Of a stretch of 64,000 nucleotides of DNA, positions 12,507 to 31,446 are shown in pieces. Location: positions 1,054,001-1,118,000 of the forward strand of contig NZ_CP141059.1 of NCBI RefSeq assembly GCF_034661235.1, in the 5' to 3' direction. The translations under genes were made by a program, and so were the position numbers. This DNA comes from Nocardioides bizhenqiangii. Lineage in GTDB: Bacteria; Actinomycetota; Actinomycetes; Propionibacteriales; Nocardioidaceae. The notes beneath the pieces are model-generated. The model saw only the letters and a program-made list of their open reading frames with translations. It did no database searches and was not told the DNA's origin. Position 1 is the stretch's first letter. Every line of letters begins with the position of its first letter.

Positions 12507-14124
12507 TGGGTCGCAGGCTGTCAAGGTCGGCAAGCCCGCCTCCAGGGACGACTCCCTCGACACGCAGTCCGGGGTACTTGGTGTCGTCGAGCAGGGTCAC
12601 CCGGACGCGCAGCAGGCGCAGCACCTCGGCCTGTTGGTCGAGGTCGAAGTGCGGCAGGTTGGTCCGCGCCTGCTCGGCCAGTCGGGTCAGTGCAGAAACC
12701 CGCGACTCTTCGGCCTGTTCCACCTCGCGGTGCTGCTCCATCGTCGCCCGGTAGGCCCGCAGCGCTTCAATCTCAGCGTCGATCTGCTCTACAGCCGAGG
12801 CGAGCACGTTGGCATCCAGCCCGATCCTGAGGCATTCGGCCACCTTGTCGGTCTTGTTGCGCTCCAGCGTGGAGATCTTGGCGTCCAGCGAGCCCAGCGT
12901 CGCGGCTTCGGCAGGCGCGACATCAGCCCGCAGGTTGAGGTAGTCGGACGCCAGTCCGAGTAGCCGGTCGGGGTCTGACAGTGCCTCGCAGACCGCCCGC
13001 CATATGGCGGAGTCGAGCGCATCGGCGTTGAACCGAACGCAGGTGCACGGCTGGTAATCAGTGGCGCGCCACTTGCGGTTGCTGCATCTGTATTGCCGTG
13101 CGCGTTCCGGGCTGCTGATGCCGCCGAGCGTCCCGCCGCAGATGGTCGCAGCACCTCGGTTGGGGTAGGTCTTGGCGTCAGATTTCACCCCGTACGCGGT
13201 CGCGTCGAGCGCCCGCTGAACGGCTTCGAAAGTCTCGGTGTCGAGAGGTGGATCTGGGAGCTTAATGAGCACTGCATCTCCGTACTTCGGCTTGCCACCC
13301 TCCATCCGGGTGACCCGAGAGGCACTGCCGTCCGGGCGCTTCTGCGACTTGCGTGTCTCCTGGCCCCAATAGGTCTCGCCTACGAGAGCACGCTTTCGCA
13401 GCATCTCGCGGACCCGTTGGTGCTTCCACAACGCACCTGGCCGACCAGCGGTGCCGCGTCCCCGGTGGCCGAGCGAGTTCAGCAGGTTCGCGGCGTCCGC
13501 AGTCGAGCGGCCGTTCAGGACGGTCTCGACACACAATCGGATCACTTCGCGCTCCTCTGGGTCAGGAACAAGCTTGACGTCGTTGGCGGTGCCGGTCTGC
13601 TTCTTTCCCTTGCCCTCGATCTTCCAGCCGTAGGGGGCGGTCCCGCCCGGCCAGCGGCCTTGCCGCGCCATTTGGCGCATCGACCCGGCAACGCGCTCTG
13701 CGATGGTGTCGCGTTCCAACTCCGCGAACACGAACGAGACGCCGAGCATCGCCCGGCCCATCGAGGTCGTTAGGTCAGGCAGCGGGTCCTTGACGGAGAC
13801 GACCGCGACCCCGGCCTCAAGGAGGTTCTGAACTTCGGTCAGTCCATGCCGTGCGGTACGGGCGAACCGATCCAACTTCTTGACGACCAGCACGTCGAAC
13901 TCGCGGCGCTGAGCAGCGGCCAGCATCGCTCGCCAACCGGGGCGGTTCGGGTTCGTTCCGCTGATGCCCTCATCGACGTACTCATGCGCGGGGTCGATGG
14001 TCCAGCCGCGCTTGGCAATGAGTTCGCGTGTGTCGTGCGTCTGCTCGTCGAGCGAGAAGCCCTCGACCTGTTCCTCTGTGGAGACGCGCCGGTAGGTCGC
14101 CGCGCGCAACAGTTGGCCGGTCAT
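12373..14124 (-). CDS. int: Large serine recombinase (integrase) of the element
   Basis: A 583-aa reading frame in the integrated state. The N-terminal resolvase domain has the catalytic serine at residue 15 (ATYRRVSTEEQ), then DEGISGTNPNRPGW and VKKLDRFAR. The recombinase domain follows (GTAPYGWKIEGK, WKHQRVREML), then a cysteine-containing zinc-ribbon region (CGGTLGG, YRCSNRKWR, CTCVR) and a coiled coil (about residues 430-490). Codon 539 is the attL core, so the last 45 residues are antisense tadB. In the excised circle the frame would instead continue into the right-end sequence and stop at 31379-31381 after SSLPPAPGRTPFDLRFRVETAA, giving about 561 aa. The start overlaps the upstream stop as ATGA. 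It should catalyse attP x attB integration; excision normally needs a directionality factor. Confidence 0.96.
   Translation of the reverse strand: MTGQLLRAATYRRVSTEEQVEGFSLDEQTHDTRELIAKRGWTIDPAHEYVDEGISGTNPNRPGWRAMLAAAQRREFDVLVVKKLDRFARTARHGLTEVQNLLEAGVAVVSVKDPLPDLTTSMGRAMLGVSFVFAELERDTIAERVAGSMRQMARQGRWPGGTAPYGWKIEGKGKKQTGTANDVKLVPDPEEREVIRLCVETVLNGRSTADAANLLNSLGHRGRGTAGRPGALWKHQRVREMLRKRALVGETYWGQETRKSQKRPDGSASRVTRMEGGKPKYGDAVLIKLPDPPLDTETFEAVQRALDATAYGVKSDAKTYPNRGAATICGGTLGGISSPERARQYRCSNRKWRATDYQPCTCVRFNADALDSAIWRAVCEALSDPDRLLGLASDYLNLRADVAPAEAATLGSLDAKISTLERNKTDKVAECLRIGLDANVLASAVEQIDAEIEALRAYRATMEQHREVEQAEESRVSALTRLAEQARTNLPHFDLDQQAEVLRLLRVRVTLLDDTKYPGLRVEGVVPGGGLADLDSLRPISGSGSPPPTSRAIRRPSITRSPTGSPSRSLSRSRQSPNRPDTW
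12501..12513. other. attL, left junction of the integrative element
   Basis: Chromosomal tadB sequence ends and element sequence begins around TGGG at 12507-12510. Aligned with the right junction it reads GAGnTGGGnCG at both ends, the shared core being TGGG. The exact crossover dinucleotide of the serine recombinase lies within or next to this core, so the boundary is accurate to a few bases. Confidence 0.75.
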
Positions 14125-14546
14125 CGCGCGGCCCGGTTCTCGAACTCATTGGCGGCGACTTCTAGCGGGTCGCGGTAGCCGTCTGCGGCCCGCAGGACCT
14201 CGACGTTCGGCGCGACCCAGGCGAGCCACTCTGGGCCGAGCATCTCTGCAACGGCAGGCGCAGCAGCGAGTTGGGGTTCGCCGAGGGCCTGCACGACTCG
14301 CACCAGCTGCGCGCGACGGTAGGCGCGGGTCAGTGCGCCCCGCAGTCGCTGGTTATGGCCCGGCACGAACATCCGCTGCAACGGGCCCGGAGTGCCGCAG
14401 CCGCAGGTACAGAACAGCGGACGCAGATCGACCGTCGTTCTTGACTCTGAGGCAAGCCCAAAACGGGAAGGGTCGGGAACGGTAGACGCGGGGTATCTGG
14501 CCTGGCTTGAGCGCTCGGAGACGTCCGAACCGGGGGGTGTCTTCAT
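14121..14546 (-). CDS. Small protein with CTCGCG...FVPGHNQR motif
   Basis: 141 aa. The ATG at 14546 follows AGGAG. The stop overlaps the integrase start (ATGA), so the two are translationally coupled. The central motif CTCGCGTPGPLQRMFVPGHNQRLRG resembles that of the protein encoded at 14615-14923, suggesting a small zinc-binding or nucleic-acid-binding knuckle. The C-terminal half is helical and ends in acidic/Asn-rich sequence. Its place directly before the integrase makes a role in integration or excision control possible, but no known excisionase signature is seen. Confidence 0.7.
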   Translation of the reverse strand: MKTPPGSDVSERSSQARYPASTVPDPSRFGLASESRTTVDLRPLFCTCGCGTPGPLQRMFVPGHNQRLRGALTRAYRRAQLVRVVQALGEPQLAAAPAVAEMLGPEWLAWVAPNVEVLRAADGYRDPLEVAANEFENRAAR

Positions 14547-14565
14547 GGCTTCTCCTGCGGGTCTG

Positions 14566-14591
14566 GGCCGGGGCGGTCTCCCGCCCCGGCC
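14566..14591 (-). terminator. Strong hairpin between two minus-strand element genes
   Basis: GGCCGGGGCGG at 14566-14576 and its perfect complement at 14581-14591 form an 11-bp GC-only stem with a TCTC tetraloop. It lies after the stop of the 14615-14923 gene and before the 14546 start, fitting a terminator or attenuator. No T-tract follows. Confidence 0.55.
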
Positions 14592-14614
14592 TCTGGGTTG
14601 TCTGCTGGGCGGCG

Positions 14615-14923
14615 TCAAGCCGCGCTCTCGGCCTCGGCCTTCGCCCTCTGCGCCTTCGCCTCGGCGTTGGCCCGGACGCGCTCGGCCTTTGCCTGCAGCG
14701 CCTCGCTCATCCCGGCGAGAGCGGCAAGCGCGGCTTTGTCCTTCGGGTTGGCGGCGAGCGCGCGGCCGGTCGCGCCTGCGTGTCTCGCGTCGTGGCCGGG
14801 GCGGAACGAGGCGCGAGGCGAGACGGCCGCCCCGCAGCCGCAGCCGCAGGCGCGCGCCTCGGGCTCGGGGGTTGGGGCGGGGGTCCGTGCGGCCTTGGCG
14901 CGGGTGGGCTTGCTGGTCGTCAT
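14615..14923 (-). CDS. Small Ala/Lys-rich protein with CGCGCG...FRPGHDAR motif
   Basis: 102 aa. The ATG at 14923 is preceded by AAGGAGAA. The order is a basic N-terminus, the motif ACGCGCGAAVSPRASFRPGHD, then a long Ala-rich helix (ALQAKAERVRANAEAKAQRAK) with coiled-coil character. The cysteine/PGHD motif is one I have seen in small proteins of actinobacteria and their phages; its function is not known to me. It shares the motif with the protein at 14121-14546, so the two may be relatives by duplication. Confidence 0.7.
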   Translation of the reverse strand: MTTSKPTRAKAARTPAPTPEPEARACGCGCGAAVSPRASFRPGHDARHAGATGRALAANPKDKAALAALAGMSEALQAKAERVRANAEAKAQRAKAEAESAA

Positions 14924-15587
14924 GCTGGGTTCTCCTTGGTGTGCGGGTTGGGTTGGGCGGTTCGGGCCGGGAGGCCCGAGAGGACGGCGGCAGAGCGCCG
15001 AGAGGACAGGACCGGGGACCGAGGGGCGGACCCGGCGGGAGCGAGAGGCGAGCCACCCGACCCGACGACGCCCACGGGCGAGGGCACCGGGCGAGAGGGC
15101 GAGGGGCGAGGGGGCCGAGGGCGAGGGCCACACGGCAGCGGGCCAAGGGGACGAGAGGCGAGGGGGCGAGAGGCGAGGGGACGAGAGGCGAGGGGACGAG
15201 AGGCGAGGGGACGAACCCGAGCGTGCGAGGGGGCGAGGGCAGGGGAGCGGGGCGAGGCGAGGGCAGGGGAGGCCGACCCCGAACGGCCAGAGGCGGAGGG
15301 CGAGGGCGCAGAAGGCGAGAGGCCACACGCCCGCGGGGCCGAGGGGAGAGGGGCAAACGGGCCAGCCACCCGCGGCGCCCCCAGGCGAGAGGCCGACAGG
15401 CGACGGACCGAGAGGCGACCGGCGCGGGAGCCAGAGGCGAGCAGCGAGAGGCACCGGGGCGAGAGGCGAGGCGCCGACGCCGAGGGGGCGAGGCGCGCGG
15501 CCCGACCAGACCGAGCCCGCGAAAGGGCGAGGGCGAGCAGGCCGACGCCCACGGGCCTACGCGGGCCGGGCGCGGCGGGAGCCGGGC
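14924..15587. repeat. 664-bp purine-rich low-complexity stretch
   Basis: The plus strand is dominated by GAG, GGCG and GAGGG runs with few pyrimidines, especially 15060-15540. Frames are open on both strands only because stops are rare; their products are pure Arg/Gly/Pro or Ser/Pro/Arg repeats and I do not call them as genes. Many G-runs could form quadruplexes on the plus strand. The core is a 15-bp tandem repeat at 15151-15210. Confidence 0.65.
15151..15210. repeat. 15-bp tandem repeat, four units
   Basis: Four head-to-tail copies of ACGAGAGGCGAGGGG (the second begins with G). The units are adjacent with no spacers. Degenerate relatives extend on both sides. It might be an iteron-like or structural region of the element; nothing here proves that. 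Confidence 0.8.
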
Positions 15588-15953
15588 TCACGCCCGGGCC
15601 TCCGCTGCTTCGGCCTCCGTCGCACGGAGGAAGGACGCGACAGCGCCGTCCGCAAGCGGGCCTTCCGGGGCGGGGTCCGCGGGGTGCGTGAAGCCGGGCT
15701 GCGCGGCGTGCGCGGTGTTCGCGGCCTGCTCGGCTGCGCGGCACGCGGAGGCCCAAGCCCGGCGTGCGCGTCCTCCGGCGGCGGGGGCCTCCGACGCGGC
15801 AGCGAAGGCCGAAGCGGCGGCGGCGTCCGCACGGGCCACGAGGACGGCAAGCGCGGGGGTGCGCGGGGCCCCGGCGGCGGCGCGGACGGCGGCGGCGGAC
15901 GCGATGCGACGGCGTACGGCGGCGGGCGGGACGGGGGCGGAAACGGGGTTCAT
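15588..15953 (-). CDS. Small Ala-rich protein of the element
   Basis: 121 aa, about 40 percent alanine. The ATG at 15953 follows AGGAG with a six-base spacer, the same good signal used by its neighbours. The sequence is one long helix-prone stretch (VARADAAAASAFAAASEAPAAGG, ACRAAEQAANTAHAA) with two cysteines. No family recognised. It could be structural or DNA-binding; low-complexity composition makes homology unsafe. Confidence 0.5.
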   Translation of the reverse strand: MNPVSAPVPPAAVRRRIASAAAVRAAAGAPRTPALAVLVARADAAAASAFAAASEAPAAGGRARRAWASACRAAEQAANTAHAAQPGFTHPADPAPEGPLADGAVASFLRATEAEAAEARA

Positions 15954-16111
15954 GACGGGCTCCTGGCTGGAAGGAAAAAAACCCCATCAAAACACGCAAA
16001 AGGCCGCCTTCATAAGTCATTGGTCCGTCCCTCGGACGGCGTGTCGTGCGACCCCGCGGAGGGCGGTGCCTGCCCCCTGAGACCCAGGAGCGAGCCACCG
16101 GATCCGCGCTC

Positions 16112-16306
16112 TCATGACGCCCGACGACGTGCTCGCTCACGCTCACGCCATGCGGGGTCGAAGCGAAGGCGAGCTGCCTTGTAGTGCAGCAGGCACAAGC
16201 CCTTTGCTCGCTTCTCGCGGTCGCAGCCCGGCACGGCGCAAGGCTGCTTTGGCGGACCAAGCGGCAGCCTCAAGATCTCGTGCCAGTGGTCTTCGGCCCA
16301 AGTCAT
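16112..16306 (-). CDS. Small zinc-finger-like protein
   Basis: 64 aa starting MTWAEDHWHEIL. The ATG at 16306 overlaps the stop of the upstream gene (ATGA). Residues 23-40 carry the pattern CAVPGCDREKRAKGLCLLHY, a C-x4-C-x8-C-x2-H arrangement found in small phage and mobile-element proteins, then a basic tail (RERERARRRAS). It probably binds nucleic acid through a single zinc site. It ends the coupled operon 19116-16112; a hairpin (CCGTCC/GGACGG at 16025-16039) beyond its stop may terminate it. Confidence 0.65.
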   Translation of the reverse strand: MTWAEDHWHEILRLPLGPPKQPCAVPGCDREKRAKGLCLLHYKAARLRFDPAWRERERARRRAS

Positions 16307-16548
16307 GACAGCGAACTTCCTGCTTCGCGCGCGGAGGTTCGTGTCGCGTGAAACTGTCTCCCCAGACGAGCGGGCGGGAGCGGGGTCCGCCTGCTCCGCG
16401 TCCCGGTGCTCTCCGACGCACAACCTTTGAAGCGTGCCCAGGGCCGTGCCCCGTGCCCGCCCTCCGGGCGCGGCACGGCACGGCACGTGTGCCCGGTGTG
16501 CTCGGCACGTGCTCGGCACGCTGGGCACAATCCGCGTTTTGCGATCAT
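16303..16548 (-). CDS. Small CxxC/HxxxC zinc-ribbon-like protein
   Basis: 81 aa. Both ends show ATGA overlap: its start with the primase stop and its stop with the next gene, strong evidence for a real translated gene. The N-terminus MIAKRGLCPACRARAEHTGH continues to a cysteine two residues on, giving C-x2-C-x8-H-x2-C, a possible one-zinc module; the rest is basic and Arg/Ser-rich. The underlying DNA at 16480-16545 has repeated CGGCACG units. Confidence 0.6.
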   Translation of the reverse strand: MIAKRGLCPACRARAEHTGHTCRAVPRPEGGHGARPWARFKGCASESTGTRSRRTPLPPARLGRQFHATRTSAREAGSSLS

Positions 16549-18686
16549 GACGCCTCCTCTGGGCTGGTGCTCGGTAGCGTGGGCTGGTCGATCACGAAGT
16601 GCTCGTGGGTGTTGCCCTTGATGACCACCCGGAGCTCGCCCGCCACCTGCGCCCGCTCGACAAGGCGGTCGACGGCCGCGGAGCCGACGCCTGTCACGCA
16701 GCGCCGGACAGAGCGCGATCCGACCCCGGGGTTGGCCCGGACGAACTCCAAGATCTGCCGCAGCGTCTCTGCGTCCTTCGTCGGGCTCGGGCCCTTGGCG
16801 GCGCGAGCAGCCATCGCGGCGGCCTCGTCGCGCTCGATGCCGGTGAAGTCAAGCTCCAGCCTGCCGCCGCCCGACGTGACCTCGACCTTCCAGACATCGC
16901 CTTGCGTCATCTCGCCGAACCTGTCCTTGTGGCAAGTGATCAGGAGCGTCCCGGACCGTTGCTTGCTGAACGGCTCCTTGACCTCGATTCCGAACGCGGA
17001 GTCTGCGGCGCTGATCTTTGATCCGGCCCCACGCGCCCACCTGCGACCCTCATCGGACTTGACCACGTGGTCGATCACGACGACTGCCGGGTGGTGTCGC
17101 ATCCGAGCGACCGGCAGCAGCGCCCTGGCGATGAAGTCGGCAACGTCGCCGTTGTCGTTCTCCTTCCTGCCAGCCAGCGTCAGGTGTAGGGACGCCGAAT
17201 CCACGATCACCAGACGGGCACCGGTCGCTGCCACCTTCTCCACCAGCCGGTCGGCGTCGCGCAGGAGGTTCCGCCCGGACGGCTGCAAATAGTGGAGCCG
17301 TGCGCGATGCTCAGGACGCAAGCCGAGTGCGCGGAACTTGGCGGCCACGTCTCGGGCCGTTGTCTCCTCGTCAACCAGCAGCACGTGCCCGTTCTCGCGG
17401 ATGACGTCCATCGCCCAGCCGTAGCAGAGCACGCTCTTGCCGCTTGACGGGTCGCCGTAGAACCACGTCAGTGAGCCCTCGTAGATCAAGCCACCCTTGC
17501 CAAACCGAGGGATCGGCTCGGGCTCCTTGACCAGCAGGTCGCCCAGGTCCACGTCGTCCCAAGCGTCTGTCGACGCCACTGTCCGACTCGACGCGTCCTT
17601 TGGCCCGTAGACCGGTAGCAGCATCCCTCGTCCCATCCCTGATTCGATCGTTGCGAGCACGGCGCGTTGGCCGTCCTCGGCCCACAGCCCATTTGCCTTG
17701 CTGGCCTCTGTGAGTTCTTCTCGAACGGTCGCCTCGGCGAGTAGGCCGCCAGCGACCCGCCGGCCGAACTTGTAGGCGGTCGCGTTCAGTTGGTCGTTGC
17801 GGCTCCCGTTCGCTGTCGCGAGGCGTGCTATCTCGCGCTCAAGCCCGGCTTCGGCCCACCGCCGCCCGCGCTCGGTCGCTTCGCCCGATGCCGTCTCGGC
17901 GCGGAGCGGGGTGGTCTGCTTTGCCGGTGGTGGCGGACCAGTTGCCTCTGATCGTGCGAGACGTCCGACCCACGCACCGGGCAGATCTGGGAACTCGTCC
18001 GGGGTTGGCACTCGGTCGGCAACCTCACCGGACGGGTTGAACCAGATGTACTGATGGCCGGAGCCGTCCCGTGTGACGACGCTTGGCCAGACCACCGCAA
18101 ACCTGAGGTGCCATGCGATGACCTCGACATCGAGGCCGAGGTCGCGCCAGCAATGGCCAGTCGGCGTCTTGAACCACCGGATACCCGACACCGGGTCGTT
18201 AGGTCGGCTGGTGCTGCGCCAGGAGGCGGGGAGCGGACCACTCTCGCTCTCCGCGTCGGCCAAGGTCTGCGCGCCGACCTTCGGTTCGTAGGCGTCAACG
18301 TCGATGCCGATGATGCCGTCCTGCGGCACAAGCACGAGATTGGCCAAGGGCCTGCTTCGACACCAGTTGCCGACGACCTTCGGACTCGGGTACTTGCGGT
18401 TGTAGCCGTGGTACCCCGACAGGTTGGGCCGCTTGCCGCCCTCTGGGACTGGGATGGGCGCAACCCATCCCACCGCGAGGTACAGGGGCGCGGCCTGTCC
18501 GTAGCCCAGCGGAGGATCTGGTGTCTCCGCGACGCGGGAGGGGGTCTCCCGCGACCTCGTGCCCTGTGGCCGGGCCCGGAGCCCGCCGCGTGCGTGCTGA
18601 TTCGCGGGAGAACTGCTCTGCGAAGTAGATCCGATCGACGCGTTCTGGCCGGGTTCCGGTAGGGCGAATGTCTGGTGCTCGGTCAC
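16545..18686 (-). CDS. Primase-polymerase/RepA-type ATPase replication protein
   Basis: 713 aa, GTG start at 18686 overlapping the previous stop (GTGA). The N-terminal half looks like a bifunctional primase-polymerase domain: LYLAVGWVAPIPVPEGGKRP, then DGIIGIDVDAYEP with an acidic metal-binding pair, then the STSRPND region. The C-terminal half is an AAA_25/RepA-like ATPase with Walker A GDPSSGKS at about residues 410-418, LLVDEET, and a Walker B strand LVIVDSASLH, followed by a sensor-like IDHVVKS and a final winged-helix segment (LEFVRANPGVGSRSVRRCVTG). This should prime and unwind element DNA after excision or induction. Fused primase-ATPases of this type occur on integrative elements, satellites and phages. 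Confidence 0.88.
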   Translation of the reverse strand: MTEHQTFALPEPGQNASIGSTSQSSSPANQHARGGLRARPQGTRSRETPSRVAETPDPPLGYGQAAPLYLAVGWVAPIPVPEGGKRPNLSGYHGYNRKYPSPKVVGNWCRSRPLANLVLVPQDGIIGIDVDAYEPKVGAQTLADAESESGPLPASWRSTSRPNDPVSGIRWFKTPTGHCWRDLGLDVEVIAWHLRFAVVWPSVVTRDGSGHQYIWFNPSGEVADRVPTPDEFPDLPGAWVGRLARSEATGPPPPAKQTTPLRAETASGEATERGRRWAEAGLEREIARLATANGSRNDQLNATAYKFGRRVAGGLLAEATVREELTEASKANGLWAEDGQRAVLATIESGMGRGMLLPVYGPKDASSRTVASTDAWDDVDLGDLLVKEPEPIPRFGKGGLIYEGSLTWFYGDPSSGKSVLCYGWAMDVIRENGHVLLVDEETTARDVAAKFRALGLRPEHRARLHYLQPSGRNLLRDADRLVEKVAATGARLVIVDSASLHLTLAGRKENDNGDVADFIARALLPVARMRHHPAVVVIDHVVKSDEGRRWARGAGSKISAADSAFGIEVKEPFSKQRSGTLLITCHKDRFGEMTQGDVWKVEVTSGGGRLELDFTGIERDEAAAMAARAAKGPSPTKDAETLRQILEFVRANPGVGSRSVRRCVTGVGSAAVDRLVERAQVAGELRVVIKGNTHEHFVIDQPTLPSTSPEEAS

Positions 18687-18898
18687 CGGTCGTCGTCCTC
18701 CATGTCGAACAGGAGGGGACGGACCAGCACACGCACGGTCTCGCGGATCACCAGCACCATGTAGGGCGGATCGGTCAGCTGCTCGTGCACGTCGGGCCCG
18801 AACTCGCCAGGGATCATGGCGCGCACAGTGATGCGGGCTTTCGGATGGTTGGCGAACCAGTCGGCGTCGATGATCTTGGCGAACTTGTCAGCGCTCAT
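18683..18898 (-). CDS. Small conserved element protein
   Basis: 71 aa, coupled at both ends by four-base overlaps (ATGA at 18895-18898, GTGA at 18683-18686). MSADKFAKIIDADWFANHPK opens the sequence, with a hydrophobic central strand (YMVLVIRETVRVLVRPLL) and an acidic end (MEDDDR). The pattern of residues suggests a compact alpha/beta fold. No function known; its position suggests a helper for the primase downstream. Confidence 0.65.
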   Translation of the reverse strand: MSADKFAKIIDADWFANHPKARITVRAMIPGEFGPDVHEQLTDPPYMVLVIRETVRVLVRPLLFDMEDDDR

Positions 18899-19116
18899 GC
18901 CGCGTCACCTGGCACCGAGCCGGGGCAGAGGGAAGGATCCAGACCTCCGCCCCGGCATCGGCTTCCCGCGCGGGTGCCTACATCACCCACCTCCCCACTG
19001 CTGACATCGAGAGCATTGGGGGAGTCAAATAGCAGACGGAGAAGGCGGTCGTGATCGGACGTGGACAGCGTCTCCGTCGCGAAGTGCGCGGCGACGCGGT
19101 TGCTGGCAGATGACAT
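18895..19116 (-). CDS. First small gene of the replication operon
   Basis: 73 aa from ATG at 19116 behind AGGA; an upstream TTG at 19302 would give 135 aa but the added stretch is low-complexity. HFATETLSTSDHDRLLRLLF is helical; the C-terminal part (SGEVGDVGTRAGSRCRGGG) looks disordered. The stop overlaps the next start (ATGA), which supports translation. Function not recognised. Confidence 0.5.
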   Translation of the reverse strand: MSSASNRVAAHFATETLSTSDHDRLLRLLFDSPNALDVSSGEVGDVGTRAGSRCRGGGLDPSLCPGSVPGDAA

Positions 19117-19482
19117 TGGCGGTCCTGAACTTGAAGGACGCGAGCCGGGTGCGCACCGCAGGTTCACCGGCAAGGCAGTTGAGCTCTCCGCCCTGCGTGC
19201 CGCCTCTGCCTTAGTCCGATCGCCGTCGGCTACTCCGCCCTCTGCCAGGGCCGGAGCGTGGCTGCTGCCGCAAGTACACCATGATGGCGGAATCCGCCGC
19301 AAGGCGATCTGGACCCGCCCCGGGGGCCCCCACCACGCAGGCCAAGACCCCGGTCGGGGCTACCGAACCGGGGTCTTGGAATCAGGATCGGAGCCTCTGC
19401 CAGGAGCCACCGCCACCACCCAGGAAAGCATGCGGATTCAGCGGTCCACAATCCCGTGCAGGGTGTGCAGGGCGCTGGCGGT
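19117..19482. other. 366-bp intergenic region upstream of the replication operon
   Basis: No convincing gene. It holds a terminator hairpin at 19342-19379, a short palindrome GGCGGA-A-TCCGCC at 19286-19298 that could be an operator, and must contain the promoter of the minus-strand operon starting at 19116. Confidence 0.6.
19342..19379 (-). terminator. Terminator-like hairpin after the GIY-YIG gene
   Basis: A perfect 13-bp stem, CCAAGACCCCGGT at 19342-19354 against its complement at 19367-19379, with a 12-nt loop. It lies about 100 bp beyond the stop of the GIY-YIG gene and insulates the replication operon from the cargo. No long T-tract follows. Confidence 0.65.
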
Positions 19483-20082: not shown

Positions 20083-20095
20083 GCCTGGCGAGTTC

Positions 20096-20509
20096 CTACT
20101 TGCTCACTCGAGACCAGCCGTTGCGCCACTTGCGAACCTGCTCGGGGTAGATCGCGGAGTGCTTGCTGTTGGGGTTCTTCGGTCGCACCCCGCCCTTGCT
20201 GGCCACGAAGTCATCATGACGCTTGCGCACGTCAGAACGGAGCTTGTCGCCCGGGCAGATGTAGAACTCACGAAGGCCGTCGGTCACGTCGACCAGCAGG
20301 TAGAAGCCGAGGTTGTCAGAGGTGAACTGGTCGACGTCCGCAATCTGCCAAGCGCCCTTGGCCGCGACGAGGATGCGAGCCTTATGACCGTTGATCTCCA
20401 CGAACGTGCTCGGTCCTACCACTTTGGCTGGCACTCCTCGCAGGAGAGCTTGTGCGACGGCGAGATGTCGGCCCGCTTGGTGCACTTGTTGATTCGTAGG
20501 CTTCGCCAT
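20096..20509 (-). CDS. Small protein, possibly restriction-endonuclease-like
   Basis: 137 aa, start ATG at 20509. The order VEINGHKARILVAAKGAWQI, then FYLLVDVTDGLREFYICPG, then VRKRHDDFVASKGGVRP resembles small proteins seen next to mobile-element nucleases; the E...K spacing recalls PD-(D/E)XK-type folds, but the catalytic signature is not clear enough to claim. It is divergent from the 20567 gene across a 57-bp gap and lies directly upstream of the GIY-YIG gene, suggesting a two-gene unit. Confidence 0.6.
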   Translation of the reverse strand: MAKPTNQQVHQAGRHLAVAQALLRGVPAKVVGPSTFVEINGHKARILVAAKGAWQIADVDQFTSDNLGFYLLVDVTDGLREFYICPGDKLRSDVRKRHDDFVASKGGVRPKNPNSKHSAIYPEQVRKWRNGWSRVSK

Positions 20510-23501: not shown

Positions 23502-23613
23502 GAATCAGCGCTGAGCCGCGTACTTCTCGGGCGTTCGCGAGCATGCGTCTGGTGTCCTCGTTAGAGTCGCCGAATGTCGGGGAGGAGGGTCCTCGCTGGC
23601 GAGGAGGGTCTAC

Positions 23614-25533
23614 GTGAGCAAGTCCCTGCTGGAGCAGTTGCCCAACATCGTCGCCGCTGGCAAGCGCCAGGCCGCGCAGATTCTTGAGCAACTCGACGGC
23701 GACCACCGCGTCTCGCTTCAGACTCGCGAACTTGTGATCCCCGGCCGCGACACCTCCGGTGCAGATCTGTTCGCCGAGGAGTCGAGGGCAGAAGCCGAAG
23801 GTGTAGTGGCGGGCGGCTTCGGGGCCATGAACCGGCTGATCTACGGCGACAATCTCCTTGCGATGGCGGCGCTCCTAGCTGGCAACGATGAGACTCCGAG
23901 TTTGCGAGGGAAGATCGATCTCATCTACATCGATCCGCCGTTCGACTCAAAGGCCGACTATCGATCGAAGATCGTCCTGCCCGGGGCAACACTCGACCAG
24001 AAGCCAAATATCTTGGAGCAGTTTGCCTACTCCGACACCTGGGCGGACGGAAGCGCCTCGTTCCTGGGCATGCTGACGCCGCGGCTCGCACTGATGCGCG
24101 AACTGCTCTCAGACAGCGGGAGCATCGTCGTTCACACGGACTGGCACGTTGGTCACTACGTGAAAATCCTCCTCGACGAAATCTTCGGCAAGGACAACTT
24201 TCGCAACGAGATTGTTTGGCACTACTACAACAAGCTTCAAGGAAACGTCGGTCGGTTTGCATCGAACCACGACGTCCTATTCGCATATAAGAAGCTGAAC
24301 AATCCCGTTTACAACGTGATCCGCGAACTGCGCGACAAGCCGAAGCGTCAGCAAAAGCGGGCTTGGGACCCCGCGACGAAGACCCTGAAGCAGGCGCGCG
24401 ACGAGCAGGGAAACTTGATCTACTACGAAGACACGCATCGCATGCTCGATGATGTCTGGCGCCTGCCCTACATCATGCCAGCCGACAAGATTCAGAAACT
24501 GAACTATCCGACCCAGAAGCCGGAGACCCTTCTTGCGCGAGTAATCGAGTCTGCCTCCAACGAGGGAGATCTCATCGCCGACTTCTTCGTCGGGTCTGGT
24601 ACGACGGCGGCCGTGGCTGAACGCCTTGGGCGGCGGTGGGTCGCCACCGACCTTGGCAAGCCATCGGCGATGATGACACGCAAGCGTCTGGTAGATCTGA
24701 ACGCGCAGCCGTTCTTGTACCAAGCCATCGGGGACTACCAGGTGGAGCAGGCACGGTCAACGCTCGGACGGTCCTTCCGCATTGGAGATCTGGCACGCGT
24801 TGTGCTGGACATCTTCGGAGCGCTGCCGCTCCCACCTGAGGAGAACGTCAACGGCAGCCTCGGACGGCTTCCGCACTCACGAACGCTTGTGTACGCCGAT
24901 AGCCCATCCAAGCTCACGACGGTCTCGACACTCCGACGAGCACGGGGCTACCGCGACGCCAAGATGGGCGGGTTCGACAAGGTCATCGTCCTCGGCTGGA
25001 ACTTCTCGGCTGGAATAGGTCACGACATCAGCGCACTATCGGACGACCGCCTGGAGGTGCTTGTCATCCCGCCGGATCTTCTCGACCGATTGAAGAAGAA
25101 GGGTGCGGACAAGATTGCGGGTGAGGTGCGCTTCTCAAGCCTGCAGTACCTTCGCGCCACCGTTGAGCAGAGGCTGGCCGCCCCGGACGGCGAAGTGCTC
25201 CGGGTTGTGTTGGACAACTACCTTCTGCTCTCGCCTGACGCGATCAATCTCGACGCGAAGAACCGTGAAGCGCTACAGAAGGTGATGAACAGTGAGCCGC
25301 TGGCGCTAATCGAATACTGGGCGGTCGATCCCGACTATGACGGTCAGGTGTTCCGCTCGGTTTGGCAGGACTACCGCGGCAACACCGAGAACGACAACGA
25401 CCCGCTGCGCGTGGTCACTAGGGCGCAGATCGAGCTTCCACCGAAAGACGGGTCCCGTACGGTGTGTGTTCGGGCAGTCGACGTGTTCGGCTTCGAGTCC
25501 GAGGTCGTCATTGAGGACGTGGATCTGCCGTGA
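23614..25533 (+). CDS. mod: Type III restriction-modification DNA methyltransferase (Mod)
   Basis: 639 aa. GTG start behind GAGGAGGG. This subunit recognises DNA and transfers a methyl group from S-adenosylmethionine to adenine. The catalytic motif IV is DPPF (DLIYIDPPFDSKADYRS) near residue 106; the SAM-binding motif I lies later (DFFVGSGTTAAVAERLGRRW) at about 327-346, the beta-class order typical of type III Mod. FAYSDTWADGSASFLGMLTPRL and FGKDNFRNEIVWHYYNK are further hallmarks. The C-terminal half includes the target recognition and Res-contacting parts. The stop overlaps the res start. Confidence 0.95.
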   Translation: MSKSLLEQLPNIVAAGKRQAAQILEQLDGDHRVSLQTRELVIPGRDTSGADLFAEESRAEAEGVVAGGFGAMNRLIYGDNLLAMAALLAGNDETPSLRGKIDLIYIDPPFDSKADYRSKIVLPGATLDQKPNILEQFAYSDTWADGSASFLGMLTPRLALMRELLSDSGSIVVHTDWHVGHYVKILLDEIFGKDNFRNEIVWHYYNKLQGNVGRFASNHDVLFAYKKLNNPVYNVIRELRDKPKRQQKRAWDPATKTLKQARDEQGNLIYYEDTHRMLDDVWRLPYIMPADKIQKLNYPTQKPETLLARVIESASNEGDLIADFFVGSGTTAAVAERLGRRWVATDLGKPSAMMTRKRLVDLNAQPFLYQAIGDYQVEQARSTLGRSFRIGDLARVVLDIFGALPLPPEENVNGSLGRLPHSRTLVYADSPSKLTTVSTLRRARGYRDAKMGGFDKVIVLGWNFSAGIGHDISALSDDRLEVLVIPPDLLDRLKKKGADKIAGEVRFSSLQYLRATVEQRLAAPDGEVLRVVLDNYLLLSPDAINLDAKNREALQKVMNSEPLALIEYWAVDPDYDGQVFRSVWQDYRGNTENDNDPLRVVTRAQIELPPKDGSRTVCVRAVDVFGFESEVVIEDVDLP

Positions 25534-28448
25534 ATGCGTTGTTCCCGCTTGCGGCTGGCCTTTCGGCGCAAGTCGATCCGCAGGTCGAGGACCTGATAGC
25601 CGGCCTAGAGCCTGAGCTCCTCGGCCAGGTCACCGCAACAACGGCCGAGTTGCTTCGCTTCTGGTTTCAGCAGGACTACTGCGACGTACGGGACCTCAAC
25701 TTCCACGAAGGTCAGCGCAGAGCCATCCTGCATGTCATCTACGCCCATGAAGTTGTGGGCGCGAAGACTCTGGGCGAGCTGTACCAGGCAGTGGCGCCCA
25801 ACGCCATGCTCGATGGCGGGGTCCTCGGCGAGGTGACCCGGGACCGTCACCAACACCCGAAGTACGCGGCGAAGATGGCCACCGGGACCGGCAAGACTTG
25901 GGTGCTCAACGCCCTCCTGGTCTGGCAGTACCTCAACAAGAAGGCGACGCCTGACGATGAGCGCTTCACTAGCAACTTCCTGCTCGTCGCGCCTGGTCTC
26001 ATCGTGTACGACCGGTTGCTCGATTCCTTCCAGGGCAAGACCATCGACGGCATCCGTGACTTCACCACGAGTGACATTCATCGACAGCAGGCTCTATTCA
26101 TCCCCGACAACTACCGTCAGTCGATATTTGGCTTCCTTCAGTCGTCAGTGGTCACCAAGACTGACATTGGTCGGAAGGTCACGGGCGGGGGCATGGTCGC
26201 CATCACCAACTGGCACTTGCTCGCTGGCGTCGAAGATCCAAACTTCCTTGACGAGGATGGCGTCGAGGCTCCGGGTAGCGACATCGACGGCAAGGCTGCC
26301 GTGGAGAGCCTCTTTCCGCTTACTCCAGGCACGTCCAAGGGCAACTCGCTCGACGTGCTAGATCGGCGGTTCGCACGTGGTGGGCCGTTGCAGTTCCTAG
26401 TCGATCTTCCCGACCTCATGGTCTTGAACGACGAGGCACACCACATACACGAGGTTCGCTCGGCGGGAGAGGTCACGGATGTCGAGTGGCAGAAGAGTCT
26501 TCTGGAGATCGCAGCGCCGAAGGGCCACAGGTTCATCCAGGTGGACTTCTCCGCAACCCCGTACAACGAGGTCGGCAGTGGCAAGAAGAAGGGGAGGCAG
26601 TACTTCCCTCACATTGTGGTGGACTTCGACCTAACCAGCGCGATGAAGGCTGGCCTGGTGAAGGCGCTCGCCCTCGACAAGCGCAAGGAGGTCGCGGCCC
26701 TGCCGCTCGACTTCCGTTCAGAGCGTGACGACGCGGGCAACGTGGTCGGGCTGTCGCAGGGACAGAGAGTGATGCTTCAAGCCGGGCTGACCAAGCTCCG
26801 CATCCTCGAAGAGCAGTTCGCTAAGACCGATCCAGACAAGCACCCAAAGCTCCTGGTGATCTGCGAGGACACTAACGTCACCCCGCTCGTTGAGGACTTC
26901 CTCGTTGAGACTGGGATGGGGGCCGACGACGTACTGCGGGTGGACTCTGGCAAGAAGGCCGAGCTGGCGGCTAAGGATTGGGAGCCGATTCGCGAGCGGC
27001 TGTTTGATGTCGACCGACACTCAACGCCGCGCGCGATCGTCTCGGTGCTCATGCTTCGCGAGGGCTTCGACGTGTCGAACATCTGCGTGATCGTCCCTCT
27101 CAGGAGCTCGCAGGCCTCGATCCTGCTGGAGCAGACCGTAGGCCGCGGTCTGCGGCTGATGTGGCGAGGCGACGAGACGATCGATGAGCTAAAGCAGGAG
27201 ACTCGCGAGCGCATCGCGAACGGCCAGGAACCAAACAACTATTTTGACGTCTTGTTCGTTGTGGAGCATCCGGCGTTCGAGGAGTTCTATAAGGATCTGA
27301 TCGCCGAGGGCCTGGCGGGAACGGTCGGCGACGACGCAGATGAGACGAACCCGCGCGGTGACCTGGAAAGTGTCGATCTCAAGCCGGGGTATCAGGCCTT
27401 CGACTTCGAGATTCCAGTGATCCTGCGGGACGCCGACGAGGAGTTGAAGGCCCCGAGCCTCGACCCGATGGTCTTGCCGCCTAGCAAGTACCCGATCGAC
27501 TTTCTGATCCGGCAGATCGGCAAGGGCGATCAGTTCGCGTCACACGATCAGCAGAGCGGCACCCAGTACGGCGACTACCGGGTCGAGGGCGGCATCCTGA
27601 CAGCAACCGGCTACAACGACTATCTGTCCCGCATGACCAACCGCATCACACACGCTCTCGGCGCCAATATCACCAAGAGCGCAGCCAAGTTCAAAGAAGT
27701 GAGTCAGTTCCCGATTCTCCAAGCGCACCGGCCCCTGCTGGTGGGCTGGCTGGATGCCTACATCCGCGGGCGCTTGTTCGGCAAGGAGTTCGACCCCCAC
27801 CAGGACGAGAACTGGCGGGTGCTCATGGTCGACGATGTCGCGCAGCACGTCGCCGGGGTGTTTGCAACAAGGCTTACCGAGCTTCAGGAGAGTGTGAAGG
27901 CAAGCGAAGCCAAGGTGCGCCACATCTTGCTGTCCGAGGTCAAGACGATCCCCGTGCGATCGACCTCATTCCTAGAGGTCAGGAAATGCATCTATCCGAA
28001 GCTCCCGATCCCGACGTACAAGGGTGGCTTGGAGCGCCGGTTCGTTCAGTGGGTCGAGAAGGACACGAAGGTTGAGGCGTTCTGCAAGATCCATGAACAC
28101 CGCCACCATGTGATGCGCCGCCCGTACTTGAAGGCGGACGGAATGCCGGCCCAGTACTCGCCGGACTTCATCGTGCGAACTGGGGACGCTATCTATGTGG
28201 TAGAGACGAAGGCCCAGTCGGCGCTCTCCGATGAGAATGTCCGGCGCAAGGAGCGCGCTGCGCTCACGTGGGTCGAGCAGATCAACACTTTAGAGCCGCA
28301 CCACCGCATGGACGTTTCGTGGTCGTACGTGCTGCTGGGCGAGGAGTTCGTCAAGAGCTGGGAGTCGAAGGGCATGCGTGCCTCTGAAGCTTTGGAGATG
28401 GCGCGCCTTCGTCGTCCCGACGATCCTGGCCAGACCACAATCTTCTGA
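25530..28448 (+). CDS. res: Type III restriction enzyme, Res subunit
   Basis: 972 aa, GTG start overlapping the mod stop (GTGA). Res is the ATP-dependent translocase/nuclease that acts with Mod on unmethylated sites. Seen in order: Walker A MATGTGKTWV at about residues 116-125, the DEAH-like box LNDEAHH at about 300, FSATPYNE, the second RecA lobe with LREGFDVSNICVIVPLR and QTVGRGLRL, and a C-terminal endonuclease domain YSPDFIV...YVVETKA, the PD...E-x-K pattern. Length is normal for the family and the gene looks intact. Confidence 0.95.
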   Translation: MNALFPLAAGLSAQVDPQVEDLIAGLEPELLGQVTATTAELLRFWFQQDYCDVRDLNFHEGQRRAILHVIYAHEVVGAKTLGELYQAVAPNAMLDGGVLGEVTRDRHQHPKYAAKMATGTGKTWVLNALLVWQYLNKKATPDDERFTSNFLLVAPGLIVYDRLLDSFQGKTIDGIRDFTTSDIHRQQALFIPDNYRQSIFGFLQSSVVTKTDIGRKVTGGGMVAITNWHLLAGVEDPNFLDEDGVEAPGSDIDGKAAVESLFPLTPGTSKGNSLDVLDRRFARGGPLQFLVDLPDLMVLNDEAHHIHEVRSAGEVTDVEWQKSLLEIAAPKGHRFIQVDFSATPYNEVGSGKKKGRQYFPHIVVDFDLTSAMKAGLVKALALDKRKEVAALPLDFRSERDDAGNVVGLSQGQRVMLQAGLTKLRILEEQFAKTDPDKHPKLLVICEDTNVTPLVEDFLVETGMGADDVLRVDSGKKAELAAKDWEPIRERLFDVDRHSTPRAIVSVLMLREGFDVSNICVIVPLRSSQASILLEQTVGRGLRLMWRGDETIDELKQETRERIANGQEPNNYFDVLFVVEHPAFEEFYKDLIAEGLAGTVGDDADETNPRGDLESVDLKPGYQAFDFEIPVILRDADEELKAPSLDPMVLPPSKYPIDFLIRQIGKGDQFASHDQQSGTQYGDYRVEGGILTATGYNDYLSRMTNRITHALGANITKSAAKFKEVSQFPILQAHRPLLVGWLDAYIRGRLFGKEFDPHQDENWRVLMVDDVAQHVAGVFATRLTELQESVKASEAKVRHILLSEVKTIPVRSTSFLEVRKCIYPKLPIPTYKGGLERRFVQWVEKDTKVEAFCKIHEHRHHVMRRPYLKADGMPAQYSPDFIVRTGDAIYVVETKAQSALSDENVRRKERAALTWVEQINTLEPHHRMDVSWSYVLLGEEFVKSWESKGMRASEALEMARLRRPDDPGQTTIF

Positions 28449-28486
28449 CTCCGCAGGGGCCGACGCACCGGCCCGGGCGTGACGGA

Positions 28487-29680
28487 TTAGAACAGGCCGC
28501 TCGACGGGTCATCCCGGCCCGGCTGGTCCTGGATGGCGTCGATGACTCCGGTGATCTGAGCGTGGTACAGCCACGAGAGGTTGCCCTCTTTCTCGAGGTC
28601 GCCAGCCACCTGAACGACGCTCCCCTGGTCGTGGGCATTGAGCGCGCGGTGGTAGTCGTCTTGGCCGAGGTGCACCCGGAGCTTGTTCGCTGGCTGCCCC
28701 GACAACGTCGTTATGCCGATGACTCCAGGACCACCAGCGTCGGACCGACTCAGCAGGTGGACCGTTCCGCTCGCGGTGACCCGGCGCGAAGGCTCAGGCC
28801 GCACTAGTTCGTTCGCGGCGCGTTCCAGCACCGGTACGACCGATGCCGCGAATGTGAACTCCTGTTCGTACGTCTGGAGTTCAGCTGGGTCTGGCTCCCA
28901 CGTCACCGTGATGCTGGCGTAGTCGGAGTTCTGAGCAATGCGCTTGATCGCGGTCACTGACTCGTAGGAGAGAGCTAGTTCCGGGGACTTGAACGCTGAC
29001 AGGCTGTTGCTTGTTCGGTAGTGGTCAATCGCTTCGGTTGCTGACGATAGCGATTCGACGATGGTTCGCGAGACCTCGCGACTTGCCACCGCATCCGTGT
29101 CGCCGAAGAGCGCGGCCTCGTCGGCATCTTTGCGTCCGCGCAACGGAATCGCACCGTTCACCGGAACGTAGGCTCGGACCACATAGCTGCCGACCTCTGT
29201 CTGACCCATCATCACCTCGTCAAGGAAGCGATTGGCAAAGCGGCCGTACTTGTTGCCGAAGTACGTGAGGCGCTCTCGCGCTCCCTTCGCCCCGGCGACC
29301 AGCAAGCCGCGTGCAGACGCGACTAACGTTTCTCCCTCCTCCCACTGGATCCATCCTTTCGGCGCCGCAGTCTCCTTAGCGAAGGCGAACTGATCCGTCG
29401 GAGACGTCGTGAGCCGACTGAGCAGTGTGAACGCCGCCGAGTCACTCGGCAGGTTCCGAAGCACATCGACGGCATCGCGCATCAACTCCGGAAAGTCAGG
29501 AGCCTCGGTTTCGAGCGGGACCAGCAGCGACCGCATGCGAGGACCGAGTTCGTCGCCGGGTGGACGGAAGCGGATGTACAGATCTCCCCGACTACTGACC
29601 TGCTGCCAGCCGGAATCGCGAAGGAGCTGGATGAGACGGCGGGGACTGGGGAGCGCGGACTCAGGCTGTTGGGAGGTCAC
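28487..29680 (-). CDS. Unknown protein paired with a DUF4365-like gene
   Basis: 397 aa from the GTG at 29680, whose first bases overlap the stop of the upstream gene (GTGA). The product opens SPRRLIQLLRDSGWQQV, continues with helical and beta segments (GESYVVRAYVPVNGA-like strands, EVSRTIVESLSSATEAID), and ends with a beta-barrel-like segment KLRVHLGQDDYHRALNAHD then GSVVQVAGDLEKEGNLSWLY, which may be an OB-type fold. No enzyme motif recognised. It always needs to be read with 29677-30201 because of the coupling; together they look like a two-gene cargo module next to a restriction system. Confidence 0.65.
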   Translation of the reverse strand: MTSQQPESALPSPRRLIQLLRDSGWQQVSSRGDLYIRFRPPGDELGPRMRSLLVPLETEAPDFPELMRDAVDVLRNLPSDSAAFTLLSRLTTSPTDQFAFAKETAAPKGWIQWEEGETLVASARGLLVAGAKGARERLTYFGNKYGRFANRFLDEVMMGQTEVGSYVVRAYVPVNGAIPLRGRKDADEAALFGDTDAVASREVSRTIVESLSSATEAIDHYRTSNSLSAFKSPELALSYESVTAIKRIAQNSDYASITVTWEPDPAELQTYEQEFTFAASVVPVLERAANELVRPEPSRRVTASGTVHLLSRSDAGGPGVIGITTLSGQPANKLRVHLGQDDYHRALNAHDQGSVVQVAGDLEKEGNLSWLYHAQITGVIDAIQDQPGRDDPSSGLF

Positions 29681-30201
29681 GGAGCGAGTCCTCCCTCGAT
29701 GCGATCCAGGATGCCGGTGAGCGCGGCGGCATCGAACACATTGGCAGCAGGTACCGACACCGTGGGCTTGTCCGCCTCGCTGGTCATGCCCTCCATGTTC
29801 AGCCAGTAGCAGCAGTGTCGCAGCAGCATCGCGCGGTGGTGTGTGTAGGTCCATCGGCTCTGGTCCTTGTGCACCACCATCAGGATCAAGATGTGCTTCT
29901 GAAGCCCTCGTGGCATCACCAGTGAGTCAAATGCCGCGCGGCTTTTGAACTGGTAGCTGAGGTGAGTGGCTCCGGTCGGCATGGAGATGCCTGTTGTGCT
30001 CTTGAGTTGAGCCTTGACCGAGATTTCTTCGGACGACGCGACGGGCTGACGGACTAACTCGACGTCGTACTTGTGGTTGTCGCGGCTGGTCCACTGCGCT
30101 GACACCCCGCAGGTCGCGGCGACAGCCGACACATATCCTTCCTGGAGTTGCTCCATGGCGTCGGTGAAGGTGCGCTCGACCACCTTGATCAGACCGGACA
30201 A
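29677..30201 (-). CDS. DUF4365-like protein
   Basis: 174 aa, TTG start at 30201 behind GGAGGG with a good spacer. Residues 20-70 carry VSAVAATCGVSAQWTSRDNH, DVELV and ISVKAQLKSTTG. In DUF4365 proteins the matching D...(E/Q)-x-K residues belong to a PD-(D/E)XK-like nuclease core; here the pattern is D-V-E-L-V then V-K-A-Q-L-K. The rest is FKSRAAFDSLVMPRGLQKHI, LILMVVHK and HCCYWLNMEG, as in the family. The gene leads a two-gene transcript with 28487-29680. Confidence 0.72.
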   Translation of the reverse strand: MSGLIKVVERTFTDAMEQLQEGYVSAVAATCGVSAQWTSRDNHKYDVELVRQPVASSEEISVKAQLKSTTGISMPTGATHLSYQFKSRAAFDSLVMPRGLQKHILILMVVHKDQSRWTYTHHRAMLLRHCCYWLNMEGMTSEADKPTVSVPAANVFDAAALTGILDRIEGGLAP

Positions 30202-30626
30202 CTCTTTACCCTCCCGCGACTGCGGCGATGCTAGTTGCCAGAAGGCGCACGCGATGGGGTTTCGGTCATCACAGGGTGCTCCAGCAGGACGGCGCGGCGG
30301 CGATGGATGACGTGGAGATGGTCATCCGCAAGGACAACAAGATCAACTTCGGCAAGATCCAGCGTGAGATTCTTCGATTCACAACGGTGGAGTCATGTTT
30401 CCGCAGGTCAGCGCGCTAGCGGCCGTCGTTTGGTTGTCCGGCTACACACCTGAGTGCACATCGTATCCACAGACTCAACGCCACTTATCCACTGCTCATC
30501 CACGGGTTATCCACAGTGCCTGTGGACGGCGGGCTTCCACTCGTCGGCGACAGTGCGCACCATCGTGTTCAGATCGTGCCGAAGTACATCGGTGTAAGTA
30601 CCGGTTAGACCTGTTCAAAGGAGTTG
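30202..30626. other. 425-bp intergenic region with origin-like sites
   Basis: Starts with the promoter of the DUF4365-like pair and holds a cluster of DnaA-box-like sites at 30463-30529. A 38-codon frame at 30303-30419 (MDDVEMVIRKDNKINFGKIQ...) may be a gene remnant or a tiny gene; there is no clear ribosome site. Composition is more AT-rich than elsewhere in the element. Confidence 0.5.
30463..30529. other. DnaA-box cluster, candidate replication origin of the element
   Basis: Within 67 bp there is one perfect TTATCCACA (30507-30515) and close relatives GTATCCACA (30463-30471), TTATCCACT (30485-30493) and TCATCCACG (30496-30504), all in one direction, plus TGTGGACGG (30521-30529) reversed. 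DnaA boxes are known to mark bacterial and plasmid origins. With a primase-ATPase on the same element this suggests replication after excision. Confidence 0.6.
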
Positions 30627-30782
30627 GTGGCATTGAGCCCGGAGTGGGTGAGCGCCGTTGGGCTCGTTGCCCTTGGCGGCATCAGATTGGGATGGGACAT
30701 GTGGCGACACCGCAAGTCGAAGGCCGAAGCGGAGGACAAGCCTGGACATGACGAGGGCGAGCCACCCGCAGCCGCTGCCTGA
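30627..30782 (+). CDS. Small membrane-like protein, 51 aa
   Basis: GTG at 30627 (or TTG at 30633) behind AAAGGAG. The product has one short hydrophobic segment (VSAVGLVALGGIRLGW) and a charged tail rich in Glu, Lys and Ala. It is the only plus-strand gene at the right end of the element and the DnaA-box cluster lies just upstream. Size and composition would suit a small phage- or element-type membrane protein; nothing more can be said. Confidence 0.4.
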   Translation: MALSPEWVSAVGLVALGGIRLGWDMWRHRKSKAEAEDKPGHDEGEPPAAAA

Positions 30783-30816
30783 TCTGCTGTCGGTTGGCCC
30801 GCCCTATCAGAAAAGG

Positions 30817-31245
30817 TCAGGAGTCGGGGTCTACGCCCCGAACCAGAGCCTCCTTGGCCGTCTGCTCGGAGTGGCCGAACGAGTAGTTGGCCGAGTTGTT
30901 GCCACCCGGCGTCCCAGAAAGCTCGTCCCAGGCTGCGTTGAATTCGGCCTCGCTGACGTGCGGAGCGCGACCGATCCCGACCCCCTCGCGTTCGAGGATG
31001 CCGTACAGCCGCTTTTGCGCTTCGGCGGCGTTCCACCCATTCTCCCGCGACGCGACGAGGAACCTCGACGCGAGCGCCTGCTGCCTCCCATCGCCGTCAA
31101 GGAGCGGTCGAACCATGTAGATCAAGTCTGAGTCGACCCCCATCTGCAGGTAGTAGTGGTAGTCGATGTCGAAGTTCTCGTCGTCGCCGGTCACCTTGCG
31201 ACCGTCCGCGGTCACGTACCGGATGTCCTTGCCGTTCTTCGTCAT
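30817..31245 (-). CDS. Element protein of unknown function at the right end
   Basis: 142 aa. The ATG at 31245 follows AGGAGAAGTA, a strong signal; the longer upstream frame is not needed. The N-terminus (YVTADGRKVTGDDENFDIDYHYYLQMG) is acidic and aromatic; the C-terminal half (AEAQKRLYGILEREGVGIG, EAEFNAAWDELSG) is helical. No family recognised. It is the last gene before attR and transcribed inward, so its promoter lies within the last 200 bp of the element. Confidence 0.65.
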   Translation of the reverse strand: MTKNGKDIRYVTADGRKVTGDDENFDIDYHYYLQMGVDSDLIYMVRPLLDGDGRQQALASRFLVASRENGWNAAEAQKRLYGILEREGVGIGRAPHVSEAEFNAAWDELSGTPGGNNSANYSFGHSEQTAKEALVRGVDPDS

Positions 31246-31446
31246 TACTTCTCCTGGTGTCTCGTAAGTGCTGGTGGTCCTGCCGGGGCCGAGCCCCGGG
31301 TGGCTGGCCCTGCGGTCGCGGGCGGTGCCCTCCCGCTTCGTCCGCGAGGCGGGGGAGGGCGGGCCATTCCTGGCTCTCTCATGCCGCCGTCTCCACGCGG
31401 AAGCGCAGGTCAAATGGGGTGCGACCTGGCGCCGGTGGCAGGGAGC
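31246..31446. other. Right end of the element, between last gene and attR
   Basis: No complete gene. Contains an imperfect hairpin (GCCCTCCCGC at 31327-31336 with GCGGGGGAGGGC at 31349-31360). The minus strand of 31379-31446 encodes the C-terminal end and stop codon that the integrase gene would use in the circular form. Confidence 0.65.

Follow-up and report, generated by a model that had tools for sequence, protein, structure and literature searches.

A GA-crossover serine-integrase element in tadB of Nocardioides bizhenqiangii and recurrent integrase insertion into tad and comM genes across the genus

Mobile genetic elements insert in comK, comYC, comFA and comM (Croucher 2016, PMC4774983), and comM is a known target of such elements, with insertions thought to block natural transformation (PMC4774983). 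Competence genes are enriched among the targets of large serine recombinases as well (PMC10083194). In Micrococcus luteus both tad clusters are required for transformation, and loss of tadB lowers it more than 100-fold (PMC4322843). Here we describe an integrated element of 18,952 bp that carries a large serine integrase and splits tadB in tad cluster 1 of Nocardioides bizhenqiangii. The analysed stretch of 64,000 nucleotides, hereafter the window, covers positions 1,054,001–1,118,000 of a single-contig 4.55-Mb genome (coded G000); features are given in window coordinates. As in the described competence-gene insertions (PMC4774983), integrases recurrently and convergently place elements in genes for taking up or processing DNA, comM included. 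In contrast to those cases, insertions here fall mainly in the actinobacterial Tad (Flp) pilus cluster, and the enzymes are serine integrases. Convergence on conserved coding genes, with competence genes enriched, is shared with the survey of large serine recombinases, the main text of which contains the terms pilus, secretion system and Nocardioides zero times (PMC10083194). A literature search pairing tadB or the tad locus with serine integrase or recombinase yielded nothing pertinent among the matches listed.

Our preferred reading, to which we assign a probability of about 60%, is that this element with a GA crossover in tadB of cluster 1 (tadB1) is one of many that hit tad or comM genes, and that such targeting is favoured since it blocks transformation. 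Disabled transformation is the best reading because DNA uptake in M. luteus depends on Tad pili; the same effect has been proposed for insertions in comK, comYC and comM. The features that define the locus are the following.

10621..11922, plus strand: tadA (T2SSE) of tad cluster 1, upstream of the split tadB (family scan).
11924..12490, plus strand: 5' part of tadB, 189 codons, ending in ...REVGGG (joint analysis and relatives).
12373..14124, minus strand: large serine integrase (Int), integrated-state frame of 583 amino acids with the last residues from antisense tadB (Resolvase and Recombinase domains).
12461..12522, no strand: attL, centred on GA 12491–12492 (att analysis).
12493..31444, no strand: integrated element, 18,952 bp counting one GA copy (relatives' tadB and attP symmetry).
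12509..12515, no strand: attP arm GGTCGCA at the left end of the element (att analysis).
31413..31474, no strand: attR, centred on GA 31443–31444 (att analysis).
31420..31426, no strand: attP arm TGCGACC at the right end of the element (att analysis).
31443..31730, plus strand: 3' part of tadB, from the GAG (E) of ELGRLLRNLS to the stop (joint analysis and relatives).
31724..32662, plus strand: tadC (T2SSF) of tad cluster 1 (family scan).

The gene order at the locus is tadA, tadB, tadC and a TadE gene, with the element inside tadB. In agreement with the original prediction, a large serine recombinase lies at the left end of the element (Resolvase, E = 2e-35; Recombinase, E = 1.3e-11), both tadB halves share one reading frame, and tadB is not intact while the element is in place. 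Relatives with an empty site were searched for and found: G050, G154 and G167 carry an uninterrupted tadB that is 83–87% identical across query residues 1–284.

The tadB loci of 51 relatives were read in both strands. Exactly two residues stand between VGGG and GRLL in all 49 loci that match the motif pattern used (two lie outside it), and REVGGGELGRLLRNLS is found at the joint in 34 of these 49; an earlier one-strand reading had given the joint pattern in 13 of 29. Homology to the relatives extends on the left to GGTGGCGA and begins on the right at GAGCTGGGG. Hence, the two sides share exactly GA, and the crossover dinucleotide lies at 12491–12492 on the left and at 31443–31444 on the right. 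In attP the 7-bp inverted arms stand exactly 16 bp to either side of GA, and 17 of 30 arm positions are symmetric; 62-mers of the element average 8.2, and 0.12% of them reach 17 or more. Read from the sequence, the joint of the element is GA, as judged by the empty site in relatives, the shared 2-bp core and the symmetric attP. The proposal that excision would restore tadB exactly is borne out with respect to the restoration itself, but the joint differs from the TGGG core that had been claimed. The TGGG joint was rejected, since its extra codons, DPLPEM, are present in none of the 49 relatives' loci; the TGGG match is chance. With the GA core, the empty-site gene has 284 codons plus stop instead of 288, and the resulting TadB of 284 amino acids equals that of close relatives. 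The extent of the element changes from 12507–31446 (18,940 bp) to 12493–31444 (18,952 bp).

Among the 215 genus genomes used for the integrase and tadB searches, four including N. bizhenqiangii itself gave integrase matches at E ≤ 1e-40. The G098 integrase is 55% identical, and its element of 17,854 bp sits in tadB at the same place. The G232 integrase (52%) belongs to an element of 9,522 bp in tadA of cluster 2, and that of G220 (34%) lies in the same tadA at about the same residue. GA cores were also found in the G098 and G232 elements, with a symmetric attP visible in both and the arms in G232 centred on GA. Outside the genus set, the search for close relatives of the integrase gave one distant match among named genomes, six matches of 25–38% among viral contigs, and best places all below 60% in 1,158 phage records; order-wide, 2 of 391 genomes matched, and class-wide 8 of 394, counts that include N. 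bizhenqiangii itself and G232.

A tadB match at E ≤ 1e-12 is present in 196 of the 215 genomes, at least two of which (G055 and G243) have distant matches only. The search for tadB splits was confined to genomes whose best match was weak; clear insertions were found in N. bizhenqiangii, G098, G023 and G119. The insert in G023 (L040:5654-17046) is an 11-kb element that lies about 40 codons further downstream and encodes a serine integrase of its own; by eye, some of its proteins resemble phage capsid and small-terminase proteins. The insert in G119 (L101, L109, L110, L102) comprises about 46 kb and lies close to codon 224; one end holds a small resolvase-like gene, and some 3.5 kb in from the other is a large serine recombinase, which may not be the inserting enzyme. 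In G164 and G100 the tadB matches fall into two neighbouring frames, pointing to a frameshifted gene that holds no insert.

In N. bizhenqiangii the second tad cluster is also broken: its tadA (tadA2) is split between 199,736 and 213,270 (L143), and the left end of the insert holds a large serine recombinase different from that of the window. Resolvase-domain genes number three in this genome at E ≤ 0.001: a small one inside the tadA2 insert and two large ones, which lie in tadB1 and tadA2. An apparent methyltransferase gene was also seen by eye in this insert. Thirteen of 208 genomes, picked mainly for weak tadA2 matches, were re-searched. Further splits emerged in G123, G145, G220 and G246 and probably in G117; in G044, G206, G191 and G236 there was one part only, or the parts lay on different contigs.

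The original prediction had called an insertion site inside a tad gene unusual. We surveyed the genus for large serine recombinases (PF07508 at E ≤ 1e-8) and found 139 places in 96 of 208 genomes. Of these, 107 were examined, i.e. seven known beforehand and 100 drawn at random from the remaining 132, leaving 32 out. Regions of ±8 kb around each integrase were used, some of them cut by contig ends. A tad gene was regarded as truncated if the best tblastn match nearest the integrase was short by over 25 residues at its integrase-facing end, and truncation of comM was judged from the listed matches. A tad homologue was in reach of 35 of the 100 random integrases: 32 abut a truncated tad gene, and three abut an apparently untruncated tadC or tadE. 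The notion of tad as an odd landing site was therefore rejected. From cluster and region size we estimate a chance expectation of about 1.6%, and 32 of 100 gives P of about 1.7e-32 under independence; as the draws are not fully independent, this is to be read as the independence value. The seven integrases known beforehand all lie in tad genes, but this set is biased, since tad genes or the integrase had led to them.

When clustered at 50% identity, the 107 integrases fall into 56 groups, of which 21 have a member in truncated tad (24 including the three untruncated neighbours); at 40% these are 13 of 29 clusters, and at 30% one of five. Tad genes are the largest target class found for the large serine recombinases of the genus, with other targets only partly tabulated. 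In 65 tad-free regions, Pfam searches of 129 flanking frames revealed, among other families, Mg-chelatase/ComM and DprA with two members each. A search for ComM placed a truncated comM beside the integrase in five of the 100 random regions (L192, L213, L269, L275, L277) and an intact comM in L261; two DprA genes adjoin broken comM. All examined integrases lie in truncated tad or comM in G220 (3/3), G004 (2/2) and N. bizhenqiangii (2/2), and most of them in G240 (3/4) and G102 (2/3). Insertion in tad and comM is recurrent and convergent across the genus. For three loci (G220:C23, G004:C54 and G240:C2), tadA1 is apparently cut by two serine integrases with a middle fragment between them. In the regions L203 and L266 one and the same fragment of tadA1 is seen, with an integrase on either side, and L198 is listed under tadA2 with a better match to tadA1.

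According to the preferred reading, the large serine integrase of the element inserted it at GA into tadB of tad cluster 1, as sequence and relatives indicate, and tadB1 is not intact while the element, with its annotated primase-polymerase module and defence genes, is in place. Breaking the Tad competence pilus or ComM would block natural transformation, and thereby the exchange of the island for an empty allele taken up from a neighbouring cell. Presumably, the element thus gains by staying put rather than by acting as a switch. Since tad and comM are linked by transformation, disruption of DNA uptake is favoured over loss of a phage receptor or neutral settling. Several points weigh against this reading. 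The integrases merge into five clusters at 30% identity, so that independence is claimed only at 40–50%; only two of the eight integrases in the largest tad-containing cluster at 50% are in tad; and 60 of the 100 sampled integrases, L261 included, have no tad gene and no truncated comM next to them. In Nocardioides, natural transformation is a putative trait, extrapolated from other systems, and a correspondence of tad clusters 1 and 2 to tad-1 and tad-2 of M. luteus would be hypothetical.

Among the alternatives, the one that survives best assumes no benefit from disruption: integrases would simply come to rest in coding sequence that is conserved and dispensable, with several such motifs on offer in tad genes. 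Breakpoints in tadA1 recur at about residues 114, 221–234, 258–278, 311–330 and 347–350, and several integrase clusters favour one place, with five integrases at residue 114 and four at 347–348, as such settling would predict. However, the paralogous ATPase tadA3 adjoins none of the 100 sampled integrases (it occurs in one region, not adjacent, and tadB2 or tadC2 in none), and a tadA paralogue of 41–46% identity, which may or may not be tadA3, was found in 13 of 13 re-searched genomes. Moreover, repeated insertion is seen in comM, and a link to transformation is all that comM has in common with tad. We consider neutral settling rather unlikely.

The remaining genes of the element are the following.

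14121..14546, minus strand: backbone gene adjoining int, with homologues in the G098 (63%) and G232 (51%) elements.
16112..16528, minus strand: small HNH-like gene (PHROG, E = 2e-5), with a homologue in G232 (49%).
16545..18686, minus strand: primase-polymerase plus AAA ATPase, with a homologue in G232 (38%).
21921..23501, no strand: cargo block common to the G098 element, comprising two unknown proteins (74% and 88%) and a helix-turn-helix protein (71%).
23614..25533, plus strand: type III restriction-modification methyltransferase (mod).
25530..28448, plus strand: type III restriction subunit (res).
28487..29854, minus strand: PDC-M02B, candidate defence system (PADLOC, E = 5.5e-105).
29677..30201, minus strand: PDC-M02A / DUF4365 (PADLOC, E = 1.7e-56).
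30817..31245, minus strand: right-end backbone gene, 142 amino acids, with homologues in G098 (31%) and G232 (33%).

The cargo includes type III restriction-modification and both parts of PDC-M02. Common to the elements of the window, G098 and G232 are the integrase, the gene adjoining it and the right-end gene; the cargo differs except for the three-gene block shared by the window and G098. The primase-polymerase/AAA protein links the window to G232 (38%) and G232 to G098 (46%), with no direct match between the window and G098 at 1e-8; a search against plasmids gave 15 records, none covering 80% of the query. The proteins of the shared block are 71–88% identical to those of G098, versus 55% for the integrases, and may be recently exchanged cargo. 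Positions 14550–16100 are very rich in guanine and cytosine, with overlapping low-complexity reading frames on both strands. Family scans of the element proteins, which did not cover every reading frame, gave no match to an FtsK/TraB-like transfer family. The right-end gene matched no known family, and a large protein database returned only the gene itself; family searches with several backbone and cargo genes gave no result.

With such cargo, breaking the Tad pili might protect host and element by removing a phage receptor, alongside the restriction and defence genes. Phages that use Tad-type pili are known elsewhere, and the type III restriction and PDC-M02 genes are in keeping with this idea. 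Against it, comM is hit too, and we know of no receptor role for comM. Removal of a receptor is an improbable explanation.

The position of attP within int has a further consequence. In the integrated state the 3' end of int is left at the far end of the element:

31379..31442, minus strand: stranded 3' end of int, where the circular-form Int (565 amino acids) would continue and end in FDLRFRVETAA (SLPPAPGRTPFDLRFRVETAA).

The reading frame of int is open across both attP and attL. Because attP lies inside the integrase gene, integration swaps the -E[VT]AA tail for one encoded by antisense tadB, which ends the 583-residue integrated form. The tails of circular Int in G098 (ADLRFRIEVAA) and G232 (FDLGFRLEVAA) agree with that of the window. 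In the 12 tail codons, including the stop, pairs of the three elements differ by 3–4 synonymous and 3 non-synonymous codons, and these few sites suggest conservation of the tail at the protein level. The search pattern for the tail matched only the window, G098 and G232, in each case at the far end of the element; it was absent from nine other integrase loci (six from the class, G220, G023 and G119) within the fetched stretches, which for some loci end before the far end. The metagenome integrases P0002 and P0004 (77% and 74% identical) carry at their C-terminus the tail expected if Int is translated across attP, and P0003 and P0005 (Nocardioides albidus) end in the antisense-tadB tail. As P0002 and P0004 carry the attP-form tail, unintegrated relatives exist. 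This shows mobility, not regulation of the pilus.

In actinophage systems of integration-dependent immunity (PMC9262239, PMC8092301, PMC6109161), attP likewise lies within a gene whose C-terminus is changed by integration, and the product of the unintegrated form often has an ssrA-like -AA at its end, like the Int tail here. There, in contrast, a repressor gene is changed and a tyrosine integrase acts, while here it is the serine integrase that changes its own tail. The ssrA-like tags of mycobacterial prophages with attP in the repressor gene are written XXXAA (PMC8092301), and the tail of circular Int fits this form. By analogy, integration possibly removes a putative degron from Int. A transfer-messenger RNA gene lies in the window at 51428–51793, and its tag, ADNKQSFALAA, can serve as a comparator for the -E[VT]AA tail. 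In the circular form, int would be followed on its strand, some 130 bp downstream, by the right-end gene. Only tentatively, we propose that the conserved tail [FA]DL[RG]FR[VIL]E[VT]AA acts as an ssrA-like degron in the circle, and that integration would strand this tail, provide a stable antisense-tadB tail and separate int from the right-end gene. The integration state may then set Int stability and direction, and the same insertion would shut down Tad-dependent DNA uptake.

Skin and active-lysogeny elements share with the present one the insertion in a coding gene and exact restoration on excision, which for this element is predicted; excision there is developmental or regulated. For a switch, little decay of tadB would be expected. 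The ratios of non-synonymous to synonymous substitution rates for the 5' and 3' halves of tadB are 0.157 and 0.090 against G050, 0.118 and 0.085 against G154, and 0.219 and 0.157 against G167; those for tadC are 0.133, 0.161 and 0.165, respectively. Little sign of decay is seen, with the 5' half somewhat raised versus G167, and recent insertion and continuing selection are indistinguishable from these ratios of tadB. The switch that had been suggested, in which regulated excision restores tadB when pili are needed, is thus highly improbable: exact restoration, unintegrated relatives and low decay would suit it, but recent insertion explains the low decay equally well, no directionality factor was recognised in family scans of the element proteins, the second tad cluster is broken by another element, and many integrases converging on tad fit lasting disruption better than a regulated switch, which has no positive support.

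Tad pilus loci are best known for adhesion. If the preferred reading, with disruption of DNA uptake as the advantage, is true, they would be a principal site of conflict between DNA uptake and mobile elements in a large group of actinobacteria from soil. The att sites described here are new and well-delimited sets of serine integrase, attB and attP, and the tail swap is a simple test case for the control of a serine integrase by its own integration. Under the preferred reading, Nocardioides would be predicted to be naturally transformable through Tad pili.

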